A DNA stretch of 64,000 nt from Sphingobacterium hotanense (GTDB lineage: Bacteria; Bacteroidota; Bacteroidia; Sphingobacteriales; Sphingobacteriaceae). The first letter of the stretch is position 1; every line of letters begins with the position of its first letter. A program made the translations under genes and the position numbers. The notes beneath the pieces are model-generated. The model ran no database searches. It was not told where the DNA came from and worked only from the letters and a program-made list of their open reading frames with translations. Location: assembly GCF_008274825.1 (NCBI RefSeq), contig NZ_CP030848.1, positions 3,099,618 through 3,163,617 on the forward strand, read 5' to 3'. Shown in pieces: positions 22,234 through 56,919 of this stretch.

Positions 22234-23616
22234 CTAATCTCTTTTTAGACCAAACTTTTCAATCTTGCTATACAAGTGACTACGCTGTATATCAAGATCG
22301 TCTGCTGTCTTAGAGACATTCCAGTTGTTCTTCTCCAATTTATACTTAATGAACTCGCATTCCGAGAAATCTTTGAAATCTTGGAAAGAAGTAAATTGCT
22401 CGAAATCAAACCCTTCGCTTGCATCAGAAGATCCATTAGACTTTGGTGCTTGCGACACACTCTCTGGATTAGCAAACATACGAACGTCATTCTCCGTAAT
22501 CTTCTTATCACATAGAATAATAAGACGCTCGATCATATTGCGAAGCTCGCGGATGTTACCTGTCCATGGCAAAGCTTGCAGTGCTTTCATTCCATCTGGA
22601 GTAATGGTCTTCACCGGCATGCTGTATTCAGCACATATCTCTTCACAAAATGCTGTTGCTAATGTTGGGATATCATCTTTACGCTCTGTCAATGAAGGTA
22701 CATGAATTAGGATCACGCTCAAGCGGTGGTACAAGTCCATACGGAAGTTTCCGTCTTCAATTTCCTGAAGTAGATTCTTATTGGTCGCCGCGATGACACG
22801 CACATTAACATCTATCTCCTTCTCTCCACCGACGCGTGTGATCTTATTTTCCTGTAATGCGCGCAATACTTTAGCTTGCGCAGATAGGCTCATATCGCCG
22901 ATCTCGTCTAAAAAGAGCGTTCCGCCGTTCGCCTGTTCGAACTTACCGATACGTTGCTTCACGGCTGAAGTAAATGACCCCTTCTCATGTCCAAACAATT
23001 CAGATTCGATCAATTCTGAAGGAATAGCCGCACAGTTAACCTCGATAAGAGGAGACGCCGCACGCATAGACTTCTCATGCAACCAACGAGCAACAAGTTC
23101 CTTACCAGCACCATTGGCACCCGTAATCAAAACTCTAGCTTCCGTAGGAGCAACTTTATCAATAGTGTCTTTAATCAAGCTAATGCCTGAGGAACTACCT
23201 AGAATTTCTTTTGTTTTGGAGAACTTACGCTTCAAAACTTTGGTTTCCTTTACTAAGGAACCCTTTTCCAGCGCATTTCGAACAGTTATTAGAAGACGAT
23301 TAAGGTCTAAGGGTTTTTCAAGGAAGTCAAAGGCACCTTTACGAGCTGCCTCAACAGCAGTTTCAATTGTACCATGACCGGAAACCATAATAAACGGAAC
23401 GTCGGAGAATTCCTTCGCGGTGCTCAACACCTCCATACCGTCCATCTTGTTCATCTTGATATCACAAAGAACAAGGTCAATTTTTTCCTTTTTTAATATT
23501 TTGAGTCCATCTTCTCCGTTGTCGACATCCAACACTTTATAATCTTCGTATTCTAAGATATCACGTAAGGAACTACGTATCGGACGTTCATCATCGATGA
23601 TTAAAACTGTGGTCAT
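22234..23616 (-). CDS. NtrC-type sigma-54 response regulator
   Basis: 460 residues. The receiver domain (1-120) has acidic DDE at residues 8-10, the phospho-Asp in LVLCDIKM (about 53) and Lys in FLEKPLD. The AAA domain (about 145-375) has Walker A GANGAGKE, Walker B GGTLFLDEIGDM and arginine fingers. The sigma-54 contact loop reads GSFTSA instead of GAFTGA. A Fis-type helix-turn-helix ends the protein (NNWNVSKTADDLDIQRSHLYSK). No sensor kinase lies next to it. A sigma-54-type promoter is seen upstream of lon in this window. Confidence 0.93.
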   Translation of the reverse strand: MTTVLIIDDERPIRSSLRDILEYEDYKVLDVDNGEDGLKILKKEKIDLVLCDIKMNKMDGMEVLSTAKEFSDVPFIMVSGHGTIETAVEAARKGAFDFLEKPLDLNRLLITVRNALEKGSLVKETKVLKRKFSKTKEILGSSSGISLIKDTIDKVAPTEARVLITGANGAGKELVARWLHEKSMRAASPLIEVNCAAIPSELIESELFGHEKGSFTSAVKQRIGKFEQANGGTLFLDEIGDMSLSAQAKVLRALQENKITRVGGEKEIDVNVRVIAATNKNLLQEIEDGNFRMDLYHRLSVILIHVPSLTERKDDIPTLATAFCEEICAEYSMPVKTITPDGMKALQALPWTGNIRELRNMIERLIILCDKKITENDVRMFANPESVSQAPKSNGSSDASEGFDFEQFTSFQDFKDFSECEFIKYKLEKNNWNVSKTADDLDIQRSHLYSKIEKFGLKRD

Positions 23617-36737: not shown

Positions 36738-37379
36738 CTATTTCAAGTTATCACGATAAACTTTCGCTTTCTTAACTTCTGTTTGGATATCCTTACGAGA
36801 AGCGTCATAGCTTAATACTTTTTCGTAATCTGTTACCGCTTTGTTGTAAGCTTCTGTAGCAGTTGTTTTGTTGTAGTTTGACGATGATTTAGTACCAGTT
36901 AAAATTCCTAAGTCACGGTAAGCGATTGCACGGTTTTGATATAATTTCGCGTCATTCGCATTGATTGCGATTGCTTTTGTATAGTCTGCAATTGCAGATT
37001 TCAATAATGCTTCGCGCTCAGATTCTTTCAATTTCAATTCGCGGTTTACAGCGATATTGTTGTTTGCTTTTGCTTTGTAGTAATAAGCATGTACATTTTT
37101 AGCATCTAAGCCGATAACTTTATTGAAAGAACCGATAGATTTCTTGTAATCACCATTTTGGAACTGCGAATAGCCCAATAAATACACTACATCTGGATCT
37201 GTTCCGGAAGTTGGAAGTGCTTTTTCAAATTGCGCTGCAGCAGTTTTAAAATCTCCATCCAATAGTGCTTTCTCTCCCGCACGAACATTTGGGTCACTAT
37301 GTTGCTTCTCTTGTGCTTGTACAGCTACTGTACTAAGTGCTAATGCTACTGCGGCTAATCCAATTTTTAAAGACTTCAT
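36738..37379 (-). CDS. Periplasmic TPR-repeat protein
   Basis: 213 residues from the ATG at 37379. A signal peptide (MKSLKIGLAAVALALSTVAV, cleavage after QAQ) is followed by tetratricopeptide repeats: ALLDGDFKTAAAQFEKALP, LLGYSQFQNGDYKKSIGSF, AIADYTKAIAINANDAKLY and KAVTDYEKVLSYDAS. Such proteins serve as scaffolds in the envelope. The specific partner is unknown. Confidence 0.8.
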   Translation of the reverse strand: MKSLKIGLAAVALALSTVAVQAQEKQHSDPNVRAGEKALLDGDFKTAAAQFEKALPTSGTDPDVVYLLGYSQFQNGDYKKSIGSFNKVIGLDAKNVHAYYYKAKANNNIAVNRELKLKESEREALLKSAIADYTKAIAINANDAKLYQNRAIAYRDLGILTGTKSSSNYNKTTATEAYNKAVTDYEKVLSYDASRKDIQTEVKKAKVYRDNLK

Positions 37380-37527
37380 CTGTGTATTGATTTTATTAAT
37401 ATTCATTTCTAATTGTTTTTCGTTGAGTGTTAGAACAGTCTACTACTGCATAGAGTAAAAATCTGTTAAATAGTTTAAGGTCACAATCAATAGTTATAAA
37501 CATTTCCACATTTTACCATAATTGACT

Positions 37528-37535
37528 TACCTTTG
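37528..37535 (+). promoter_or_regulatory. Housekeeping-type -7 element upstream of lon
   Basis: TACCTTTG matches TAnnTTTG exactly, 186 bases before the lon ATG. If used, the transcript has a leader of about 180 bases that includes the sigma-54-type promoter and a GCCGA..TCGGC hairpin just before the start. Confidence 0.5.
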
Positions 37536-37626
37536 CGCTAAATAACGCGCTGTCAATGAACGGCAATAACTGACGATTTAACAGTAATTACCCTTCATTA
37601 GCATAAATAATACCAAAAATTTAGCC

Positions 37627-37644
37627 TTGGCACTGCTGTTGCAT
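37627..37644 (+). promoter_or_regulatory. Sigma-54-type promoter upstream of lon
   Basis: TTGGCACTGCTGTTGCAT fits the sigma-54 consensus TGGCAC-N5-TTGCA exactly, with GG (37629-37630) and GC (37641-37642) separated by 10 bases, the required spacing. Transcription would start near 37654, about 67 bases before the lon ATG. Confidence 0.75.
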
Positions 37645-37720
37645 TATAGTGATATAACTATAATAGGATATTTATCGCCGAACCGTCTGACAAGATGTCG
37701 GCAAAACGATATATGAAAAT

Positions 37721-40186
37721 ATGAGTAAATTCAACGCATTCAACTTTGACCAAACATTACCCATCATTAACGAGGAAACGGAATTCTTCCCCCTGTTGAC
37801 TCAACAGGATGAGGAAGAAATGCGCAATGCCGAAATACCAGAGGTACTGCCTATTCTCCCCCTCCGCAATACCGTATTGTTTCCTGGTGTAGTGATTCCA
37901 ATCACGGTGGGTAGAGATAAATCCATCAAGTTGATCAAAGATGCCTATAAAGGAGATCGCGCCATTGGTGTGGTATCTCAAAAAGATATGATCGTTGAAG
38001 ATCCGACCTTCGAGCAATTGCACAAAGTCGGAACTGTCGCACATATCATCAAAATCCTTCAGATGCCTGATGGTAATACCACGGTTATTATACAAGGTAA
38101 ACAACGCTTCCGTCTATTGGAACTGGTGCAAACCGAACCGTATATGACGGCCAAGGTGGAGAAGTTTCCTGAGGATAAGCCAAAGACCAGTTCAAAACAA
38201 TTTAAAGCGCTTATTGCTTCGGTAAAAGAACTCGCATTACAGATCATCCAATTATCACCCAACCTTCCGAGCGAGGCTGGCATTGCGATCAAAAATATCG
38301 AGAGCCCGACTTTCTTAGTGAATTTTATTGCTTCTAATCTTTCTTTAGAGTTAGAGGACAAGCAAGACTTACTAGAAAACAAAGATTTCGTCAAACGTGC
38401 GAAACAACTCTTAGAGCACCTAACTACCGAAATTCAAATGCTGGAATTGAAGAATCAAATCCAGAACAAGGTTCGTGTAGATCTGGATAAACAACAACGC
38501 GATTATTTCTTAAGCCAGCAGTTAAAGACTATTCAAGAAGAATTAGGCGGTAGCACCCCTGACTTAGAATTGGAAGAACTGAAGAAAAGAGGAAAAAACA
38601 AGAAGTGGCCAGAGGATGTTTCAAAGCATTTTGCTAAGGAACTGGAGAAGCTTGCGCGTATTAATCCTGCAGCGGCAGATTATTCGGTGCAGTTGAACTA
38701 TCTGGAATTATTGCTTGATCTTCCATGGGCAGAATACACAAAAGATAACTTTGACCTAAAACGTGCCGAAAGGATATTGGACAAAGATCACTATGGTTTA
38801 GAGAAGGTAAAACAGCGTATCATTGAATACTTAGCGGTTCTTAAGCTAAAGAATGATATGAAGGCACCTATCCTATGCCTTGTGGGTCCTCCGGGGGTTG
38901 GTAAAACATCCCTAGGAAAGTCTATCGCAAGAGCCTTAGGACGAAAATACACACGTATGGCCTTAGGTGGCGTAAGAGATGAAGCAGAGATTCGTGGTCA
39001 CCGTAAAACATATATTGGCGCTATGCCGGGCCGCATTATACAGTCGTTGAAAAAAGCTGGCGCATCGAATCCGGTATTTGTACTAGACGAAATTGATAAA
39101 ATCGGCTCTGACTTCAAAGGTGATCCTTCTTCAGCTTTATTGGAAGTTTTAGATCCAGAACAAAACACCAACTTCTATGACCACTATGTGGAAATGGAAT
39201 ACGACTTATCTAAGGTGATGTTTATCGCTACGGCAAACTCGCTGAACGGAATACAGCCGGCATTGTTAGATCGTATGGAGATTATCGAAGTCAATGGTTA
39301 TACGATTGAGGAAAAGATTGAAATTGCTAAGAAGCACTTGTTGCCGAAGCAACGCGAAATGCACGGTATACAAGCTAAAGATATCAGTTTAAAGCCAAAG
39401 ATGATTGAGAAAATCATCGAAGAGTACACGAGAGAATCCGGCGTTCGTGGCCTAGAGAAGAAGATTGGGTCGGTAGTTCGTGGGGTTGCGACGCGCATTG
39501 TGATGGAAAAAGAATACAATCCGGCGCTTACGGCTTCGGATCTCGAAGAGATCTTAGGCGCTCCTATCTTTGATAAGGACCTATACGAGAACAACGATAT
39601 CGCGGGTGTTGTGACTGGTTTAGCATGGACTTCGGTAGGTGGGGATATCCTTTTCATCGAGTCGAGCTTAAGCCCTGGAAAAGGAAAGCTAAGCCTAACG
39701 GGTAACTTAGGCGATGTAATGAAGGAGTCTGCAGCGATTGCAATGGCGTATTTACGCTCGCATGCAGAGGAATTCGGAATTGACTATGCGGTATTTGACC
39801 AATGGGATGTCAATATCCACGTTCCGGCAGGTGCAACTCCGAAAGATGGTCCATCTGCAGGTATTACCATGCTGACAGCATTAGCATCCCTGTTTACTCA
39901 ACGTAAGGTAAAAGAGAAGCTAGCGATGACTGGCGAGATTACTCTACGTGGAAAAGTACTTCCGGTAGGTGGAATCAAAGAAAAGATCTTGGCAGCGAAA
40001 CGTGCGAACATTAAGGAGATCATCCTATGCAAAAGCAATCAGAAGGACATCCAGGAGATTAAAGAGGACTACGTAAAGGACTTGAAATTCCATTATGTGA
40101 CTGACATGAAGGAAGTCGTTAAACTAGCCTTATTAGACAGCAAAGTTAAAAACGCGAAGAAGCTATTGCGCGAAGACGCAAAATAG
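37721..40186 (+). CDS. lon: ATP-dependent protease Lon
   Basis: 821 residues. The N-terminal substrate-binding domain has [15 protein letters not shown]. The AAA domain has Walker [14 protein letters not shown] and Walker [11 protein letters not shown]. The C-terminal protease domain has the catalytic serine in [10 protein letters not shown] and lysine in [10 protein letters not shown]. It degrades misfolded and regulatory proteins in the cytoplasm. Two promoter types are visible upstream: a housekeeping -7 element (37528) and a sigma-54 match (37627). Confidence 0.97.
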
Positions 40187-55911: not shown

Positions 55912-56919
55912 CTAGTTGGTTATTATGTATTTAGAAAACCCCTTGGAATACGCTTCTTTCACGACGCCATTATCCAAATACAGTAAATAAATATCAATTT
56001 TATTTTTTGAATTCGCAAATGCGACCGCATCCTCAGGTTTCATCGCCATAAATACATTATCGAGCGCATCTGCATCCATTGCATTCTCGGCAATCACTGT
56101 AACAGTGATAATGGATGATTTCAATGGATATCCGGTTTTTGCATCCATATGATGCGAAAAACGATAATTATCCACAGTGCGATATTTTTCATAGCTGCCC
56201 GACGTAGTCACGGCCTTATTGTGCAATGCGATGATGTAATTCCTTTGCTCCTTTGCTTCATCCGGTCGCTGTATCAAGATTTTATAGGGCTCGTCTTCAG
56301 GCTTGTAACCATACGTGCGAATCTCCCCACCTACTTCCACTAAAAACGATTTAATTTTTCTAGACAGAAGGAAATCGTAAAGCACATCTACGGTATAACC
56401 TTGTGCAATGCCATTTAAATCAATTTCAACACGTTTGTCCTTCTTCCGAAGCTGCTTACCTCTGACTTTCAACTTATCCATCCCAACGTATGTTAAAGCA
56501 ACTTTAACCGCATTAGAATCCGGTATGCCGACTGTCTTTTCTGGCCCGAAACCCCATATTGAAACTAAGGGCTTCACGGTTATATCAAATATCCCTTTCG
56601 ATAGCTTATTGATTTGAAAAGATTTCTTCAGCACCGCTTGCATGTGATTATCCATCACAATCTCGCTGCTCGTATCGGAATTAAACTTGCTGATTAAGGA
56701 GCTTGGCTTATACAGCGACATAGACTGGTCGATGACCTGAAATATACTATCCAGTTGCGCTTTCTCAACTTGCTCGTCGTTGGCATAATAGCTGACAGCG
56801 TATGTCGTTCCTTGGGCATAACCTTCCAGGTTGAATCGCTGTAAACCAGAAATTGGCTGTTGCGCAAAGGCGCAACAACCAATTCCCATTATGCCGATCA
56901 GACCGAACCAGTTCAACAC
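55912..56919 (-). CDS. apbE: FAD:protein FMN transferase
   Basis: 335 residues with a signal peptide (MLNWFGLIGIMGIGCCAFA) and thus periplasmic. It attaches FMN covalently to Thr/Ser of flavoprotein partners. Visible ApbE motifs are GTTYAVSYYA, ISKFNSDT, KRVEIDLNGIAQGYTVD, VEVGGEIRTYG and the Mg-binding DADALDNVFMAM. Its target in this genome is not visible here; no protein in the window shows an obvious flavinylation motif. It lies 5 bases after the Gfo/Idh gene. Confidence 0.92.
   Translation of the reverse strand: MLNWFGLIGIMGIGCCAFAQQPISGLQRFNLEGYAQGTTYAVSYYANDEQVEKAQLDSIFQVIDQSMSLYKPSSLISKFNSDTSSEIVMDNHMQAVLKKSFQINKLSKGIFDITVKPLVSIWGFGPEKTVGIPDSNAVKVALTYVGMDKLKVRGKQLRKKDKRVEIDLNGIAQGYTVDVLYDFLLSRKIKSFLVEVGGEIRTYGYKPEDEPYKILIQRPDEAKEQRNYIIALHNKAVTTSGSYEKYRTVDNYRFSHHMDAKTGYPLKSSIITVTVIAENAMDADALDNVFMAMKPEDAVAFANSKNKIDIYLLYLDNGVVKEAYSKGFSKYIITN

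Follow-up and report, generated by a model that had tools for sequence, protein, structure and literature searches.

The gene for the ATP-dependent protease Lon probably belongs to an old sigma-54 proteostasis regulon together with dnaK and, less clearly, groESL, and an activator encoded next to miaB is the most likely driver of this regulon. We propose that a sigma-54 promoter at 37627-37643 would drive the transcription of lon. The activator, a receiver-less AAA+/Fis-type enhancer-binding protein from the miaB operon just 5' of groESL, would bind TGACA-N3-TGTCA repeats placed on one helix face relative to the promoter, both upstream and in the lon leader, and would drive open-complex formation through ATP hydrolysis. 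A copy of this repeat over the -33 region of the activator's own operon would give negative autoregulation. The effect on the target genes would be positive and the stimulus presumably misfolded protein or heat; the label 'heat shock' is used here because of the identity of the target genes.

The sigma-54 promoter in front of lon

The sequence TGGCACTGCTGTTGCA (TGGCAC-N5-TTGCA) lies at 37628-37643 on the forward strand, 77 nt 5' of lon, and an extra T at 37627 extends it to TTGGCAC-N5-TTGCA, the putative sigma-54 -24/-12 promoter (37627-37643, forward strand). Both the -24 GG and the -12 GC are present, and the distance between them fits sigma-54. TGGCAC-N5-TTGCA occurs only here in the window (the whole stretch of 64,000 nucleotides of Sphingobacterium hotanense DNA that was analyzed), with 0.01 occurrences expected from shuffles. 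The preliminary description had reported this element with the right GG/GC spacing 77 bases before lon, and this was confirmed. Transcription is predicted to start at about 37654, which is 67 nt ahead of the ATG at 37721. The gene (37721-40186, forward strand) encodes 821 aa, and the protein is 93% identical to a match from Sphingobacterium humi. The motif lies inside a 314-base gap whose other flank is a divergent ORF (36738-37406, reverse strand), which is TPR-like by eye. A second candidate in the window, TTGGCATAATAGCTG at 56780, lies in antisense orientation within an ORF of 335 codons (55912-56919) and was taken as chance.

In the single-contig genome of 4.49 Mb, the exact lon motif has 1 match compared with 2 for the reversed pattern. 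Relaxed patterns gave the same picture, with 18 matches and 18 in the reversed control for YTGGNAYN5TTGCW, and 16 matches and 15 in the control for TTGGCAYN5TTG. Since there was no excess over the reversed control, count statistics were dropped and conservation was used instead. One of the 16 genomic TTGGCAYN5TTG sites is directly 5' of dnaK. TTGGCAT-N5-TTG was also seen about 140 nt (G000:C1:253788) and about 50 nt (G000:C1:4096249) 5' of two ORFs resembling ECF-type sigma factors, and both sites could be chance.

For the family sample, the best 80 were taken from 266 lon loci, along with their 5' flanks; one locus with a 39-nt flank (L069) was dropped, and the remaining 79 and the window make up the 80 regions. 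Exactly one TTGGCA[CT]-N5-TTG was found within the 400 nt preceding lon in 80/80 of these Sphingobacteriaceae-type regions, at 90-143 nt before the gene. The nine fixed letters are set by the search pattern, and the result is therefore the single occurrence in each of the 80 regions. The surrounding letters drift: the commonest letter is shared by 27-49 of the 80 regions at the four positions 5' of the motif and by 26-41 in the spacer, except for the C right before TTG (64/80). After TTG, the -12 C is kept in 63 regions (A in 12, T in 5) and the following A in 77, and the commonest letter falls to 38-52 of 80 at further positions. A wider sample of 60 lon upstream regions of Bacteroidota was picked from 148 genomes searched. 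Its same-family regions had the motif in 5/5 cases; one of them (L129) is probably from the same genome as a region of the family sample (L031), so the five were not added to the 80. Among 31 genomes from other families of the same class, TGGCA[CT]-N5-TTG was present 5' of lon in 26, and TGG[CT]A[CT]-N5-TTG in 28.

A core matrix was trained on dnaK only, with the spacer and post-TTG columns zeroed and a 99% shuffle threshold. For lon, it was passed by 80/80 family regions, 27/31 other genomes of the class and 3/24 genomes of other classes, and by 0/33 of the miaB-operon upstream regions used as a control. This matrix was designed after the result of a full-site dnaK matrix, which overfitted the spacer and -12 letters and was rejected; above its 99% threshold were 30/80 family lon regions, 9/30 groES regions and 4/30 clpB regions. 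In a family outside the class (f21), each of the 5 genomes sampled (L173-L177) has TGGCTT-N5-TTGC at about 49-62 nt from lon on its 5' side. These sites score below or at the shuffle threshold and are possibly a variant of the lon promoter of the class.

For the DNA-binding domain of sigma-54, the genome gave a single match, rpoN (E 3.5e-56), with the RpoN box ARRTVAKYR. The sigma-54 control of lon that had been proposed, along with a search for the motif in relatives, is thus strongly supported by the conservation of the motif and by an rpoN gene with its RpoN box. We consider with high confidence that the predicted lon promoter is real, a judgment made because the motif is conserved, its bare genome-wide counts being not unusual.

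A housekeeping-type element had also been described in front of lon. TAnnTTTG is the -7 element of Bacteroidota, and a copy does exist in the window, TACCTTTG (37528-37535, forward strand), 100 bp upstream of the sigma-54 motif. Its conservation is poor: over an 80-bp stretch, 60-140 bp upstream of the motif, TAnnTTTG was found in 7/79 regions versus 3.8 in shuffles. At 5-45 bp upstream it was found in 15/80 regions, 12 of them in one group of look-alike loci, and it is absent there in the window; at 22-31 bp, the count was 13/80, again with 12 look-alikes. Between the motif and the lon ATG, it was found in 1/80. Conservation of a -7 element with lon across the family was therefore not found, one group of look-alike loci excepted. 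In these 12 loci (L070-L078, L080, L091 and L101), TAATTTTG or TATTTTTG precedes the sigma-54 motif by 23-24 bp and might be a second, housekeeping promoter. It could be argued that the sigma-54 motif is no working promoter and that a housekeeping promoter, for example TACCTTTG, serves lon, given the TAnnTTTG copies 100 bp upstream in the window and 22-31 bp upstream in the 13 regions, and a sigma-54 motif that is by itself not rarer than chance in the genome. However, both motif blocks and their spacing are kept in 80/80 regions while the spacer drifts, and the more distant -7 element accompanies them in only 7/79, which makes this explanation highly improbable.

A phased inverted repeat at lon and dnaK, also present at groES

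An inverted repeat, TGACA-N3-TGTCA, is found on both sides of the lon promoter. The upstream copy, CTGACGATTTAACAG (37570-37584, forward strand), is a weak form centered at about -77, 57 bp from the TGG, and is a candidate activator site. The leader copy, CTGACAAGATGTCGG (37687-37701, forward strand), is a strong form centered at about +40 and is a candidate second activator site. In the family sample, the loose repeat occurs within 125 bp upstream of the motif in 45/80 regions compared with 0.24 expected, and the leaders contain the strict form in 70/80 (0.015 expected) and the loose form in 80/80 (0.35 expected). Upstream of lon in other genomes of the class, the repeat was found in 20/31 (0.24 expected).

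The repeat also precedes other genes in the class. It was found upstream of dnaK in 22/30 genomes (search pattern TG[ACT]CA-N3-TG[AGT]CA; 0.095 expected), upstream of groES in 19/30 (0.105 expected) and at the miaB operon in 22/33 (0.055 expected); the 11/33 misses at the miaB operon include 5 stretches without a recognizable miaB ORF. Some of the groES repeats are part of hairpins resembling secG terminators. GACA-N3-TGTC-type repeats were found at clpB in 14/30 genomes, with 0.57 expected. In the genome of the window, TGWCA-N3-TGWCA has 12 sites versus 5 for the control; 8 of the 12 are within ORFs, and the others precede dnaK, groES and the miaB operon or lie in an ORF-less stretch. The repeat TGTCAAGATGACA (G000:C1:402021-402033) has no long ORF around it.

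The distance from repeat to promoter changes in steps. Measured start to start, it is 25, 35-36, 56-57, 67-68, 78-79, 89 or 100 bp for dnaK and 25, 36, 56-57, 67-68, 76-77 or 88 bp for the upstream repeat of lon. The 57 bp of the window is a phase class seen for dnaK too, and the groES repeat of this genome sits 88 bp before the TGG. In a Rayleigh test that itself included a scan over periods of 10.0 to 11.3, the distinct dnaK distances gave R 0.99 at a period of 10.7 (Monte Carlo p 0.0002), and the distinct lon upstream distances gave R 0.96 (p 0.001) in the same phase as dnaK; collapsing to distinct values is the sole correction for phylogeny in these figures. The leader copies of lon, at 60-62, 70, 72 and 82 bp downstream, are 1-2 bp off the dnaK phase and appear near the phase of the upstream copies. 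Stepwise distances at dnaK and lon would be expected if an activator must face the polymerase, and an unrelated factor does not explain them. The palindrome at 37687-37701 could also be read as an RNA hairpin, but we favor a DNA site because the same repeat occurs at dnaK and miaB and because of the stepwise distances.

Another reading is that the repeats bind a separate repressor (heat-labile, HrcA-like) and that sigma-54 activation comes from an unrelated source. An operator would fit the miaB-operon repeat, which covers the -33 region, and the strongest lon copy, which is downstream of the predicted start. At dnaK, however, the repeat precedes the promoter by 25-100 bp in phased steps, which is what an activator would be expected to show, and the repeat-bearing operon itself codes for a Fis-type DNA-binding activator. 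HrcA itself was not found: 0/31 genomes had a match, compared with 7/14 control genomes. We therefore regard a separate repressor as quite unlikely and prefer activation from the repeats.

The miaB-linked activator

Eight PF00158 matches, the mark of sigma-54 activator genes, were found in the genome, four of them strong. One belongs to a 423-aa protein encoded at G000:C1:547531-548802, where the gene order (G000:C1:541000-558000) is miaB, activator, LptE-like gene, ORF, secG, and then groES and groEL. The protein matches PF00158 (E 2.4e-68), with Walker A and a GAFTGA-type loop, and, at its C-terminus, the Fis-type HTH PF02954 (E 2.1e-12). There is no match to the receiver domain PF00072, and the AAA+ match begins at residue 12. 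Many Bacteroidetes have activators that lack a DNA-binding domain (PMC3372290), whereas the miaB-linked activator does carry one.

The activator was matched in 33/33 genomes of the class that were searched, with 56-89% identity, and in 24/30 the activator and groES are no more than 5 kb apart (the exceptions are G126, G091, G033, G007, G037 and G012). In an alignment of 21 activators (its own sequence and 20 of the 33 class matches), the loop G[AS][FY]TGA was present in 21/21 and the recognition helix LGISERTLYRK[IL]K was invariant in 21/21. The best matches in 17/17 genomes of other classes had 42-56% identity, 8 of them over partial length; as judged from these matches, a relative of the activator is more widespread than the lon promoter.

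In 20/33 genomes, the repeat of the miaB operon begins 29-33 nt 5' of a TAnnTTTG; in 1 more, the distance is 23 nt. A repeat in this place would overlie the -33 region, a position suggestive of self-repression of the miaB operon. Such an arrangement would recall E. coli PspF of the psp operon, an AAA+ activator that has a Fis-type HTH and no receiver domain; PspF turns on stress promoters of the sigma-54 type and, bound at its sites, represses the housekeeping promoter of its own gene. The miaB-linked activator likewise combines a receiver-less AAA+ domain and a Fis-type HTH, and the repeat near the -7 element of its operon is a candidate operator; it differs in its candidate targets, which are chaperones and Lon and not membrane-stress genes.

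We tentatively extend this picture to a general heat-shock regulator of the class, although we hold the extension to be somewhat more doubtful than probable. The miaB-linked activator would replace sigma-32 and HrcA, repress its own operon, and be kept inactive by free DnaK or GroEL or turned over by Lon; misfolded protein would release it, and through face-of-helix enhancers it would then activate dnaK, groESL and lon.

The NtrC-type regulator in the window

The preliminary description had suggested a link from lon to an NtrC-type signal through the one such regulator gene in the window (22234-23616, reverse strand). Its product has receiver, AAA+ and HTH_8 domains. The sigma-54 contact loop reads GSFTSA, not GAFTGA, and the protein may be no normal sigma-54 activator. 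The link was not supported, since the activator-type site is found at dnaK, at groES and at the operon of another, receiver-less activator, and since four genomes (G029, G053, G107 and G041) with only two activator matches each (E<=1e-30) keep both the lon and the dnaK promoters. In a further genome (G115), one activator match was found at the same cut-off, with a weak TGGTAC site at lon; its dnaK was left out. Because genomes with two activator matches keep both promoters, the conserved pattern probably does not depend on the regulator in the window, which could be an additional input in this species.

It is accordingly unlikely that the promoter is sigma-54 dependent under some other activator, for example the regulator in the window, with the repeats belonging elsewhere. 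This explanation can draw on the four genes with strong PF00158 matches and on the domain set of the regulator. It is opposed by the four genomes that keep both promoters and by the GSFTSA loop, which departs from the G[AS][FY]TGA of the 21 aligned miaB-linked activators, and a match to the miaB-linked activator was found in every one of the 33 genomes of the class that were searched for it. The miaB-linked activator, rather than the regulator in the window, is likely to run the lon/dnaK regulon.

Other candidate members of the regulon

Apart from lon, rpoN, clpB and the activators, genes were named by reading translations. A lon-type sigma-54 promoter was found at dnaK in 29/30 genomes of the class; dnaK passes the core matrix in 28/30, but dnaK is the training set. 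For groES, only 12/30 regions were above the core-matrix threshold; TGGCA[CT] was present in the last 120 nt in 28/30, and the -12 half was often CTGA or otherwise off. clpB, predicted as a member, passes the promoter matrix in only 4/30 (31 genomes, with no match for G041 at the cut-off and a second G037 match left out). At the sequence level, there is good support for the regulon and its phased operator at lon and dnaK, and less at groES.

The preliminary description had set sigma-54 against the usual heat-shock or housekeeping control of lon; here the candidate sigma-54 set itself appears to be of the heat-shock type. In the genome of the window, TTGGCAT-N5-TTGCA (G000:C1:545169-545185, forward strand) was also seen just 5' of a lipoprotein-like gene, glycine-zipper/OmpA-like by eye, that adjoins the upstream side of the miaB cluster.

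Relation to known systems

To our knowledge, the control of chaperones and Lon in Bacteroidota, which are major gut, soil and marine bacteria, is poorly understood, and sigma-32 (RpoH) is reported missing from them. If the proposal is true, it assigns to Bacteroidota proteostasis a sigma factor, an operator and one candidate master activator, and the control of these genes could be tested by knocking out one gene. It would further provide a clear example of sigma-54 in the service of core proteostasis, not of nitrogen or motility functions. The output genes dnaK, groESL and lon are shared with the sigma-32 and HrcA/CIRCE systems; the difference from HrcA/CIRCE is the lack of an HrcA match in 31/31 genomes.

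Among the protease families considered below, we take COG0466 to be Lon. Sigma-54 promoters have been predicted to be enriched in Bacteroidota before GroEL/ES, DnaK, GrpE, DnaJ and IbpA, and they were also predicted before the ATP-dependent proteases COG0542, COG0466 and COG1066 in Flavobacteriia and Bacteroidia (PMC12316311, Carrera-Reyna et al. 2025). The link between sigma-54 and Lon is thus already in print as a prediction, with these two classes given by name, and the word start 'sphingobacter' is absent from the main text of PMC12316311. That study also calls GrpE and GroES sigma-54 dependent in two species, citing a paper titled on Blattabacterium nitrogen recycling, and notes that EBP specificities are not available for all the organisms it studied. 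The same promoter class is found here before Lon and chaperones, as predicted promoters are there; a candidate operator, its phasing and a candidate activator for these genes are added here, compared with none in the parts of PMC12316311 consulted. In searches of CC-licensed literature, we found no named activator or operator for a sigma-54 proteostasis regulon. In Chlamydia, sigma-54/AtoC has been considered under heat shock, and rpoN falls on heat shock (PMC8762339). That system differs from the one proposed here in that AtoC is a two-component regulator and that HrcA with CIRCE is present (PMC8762339).
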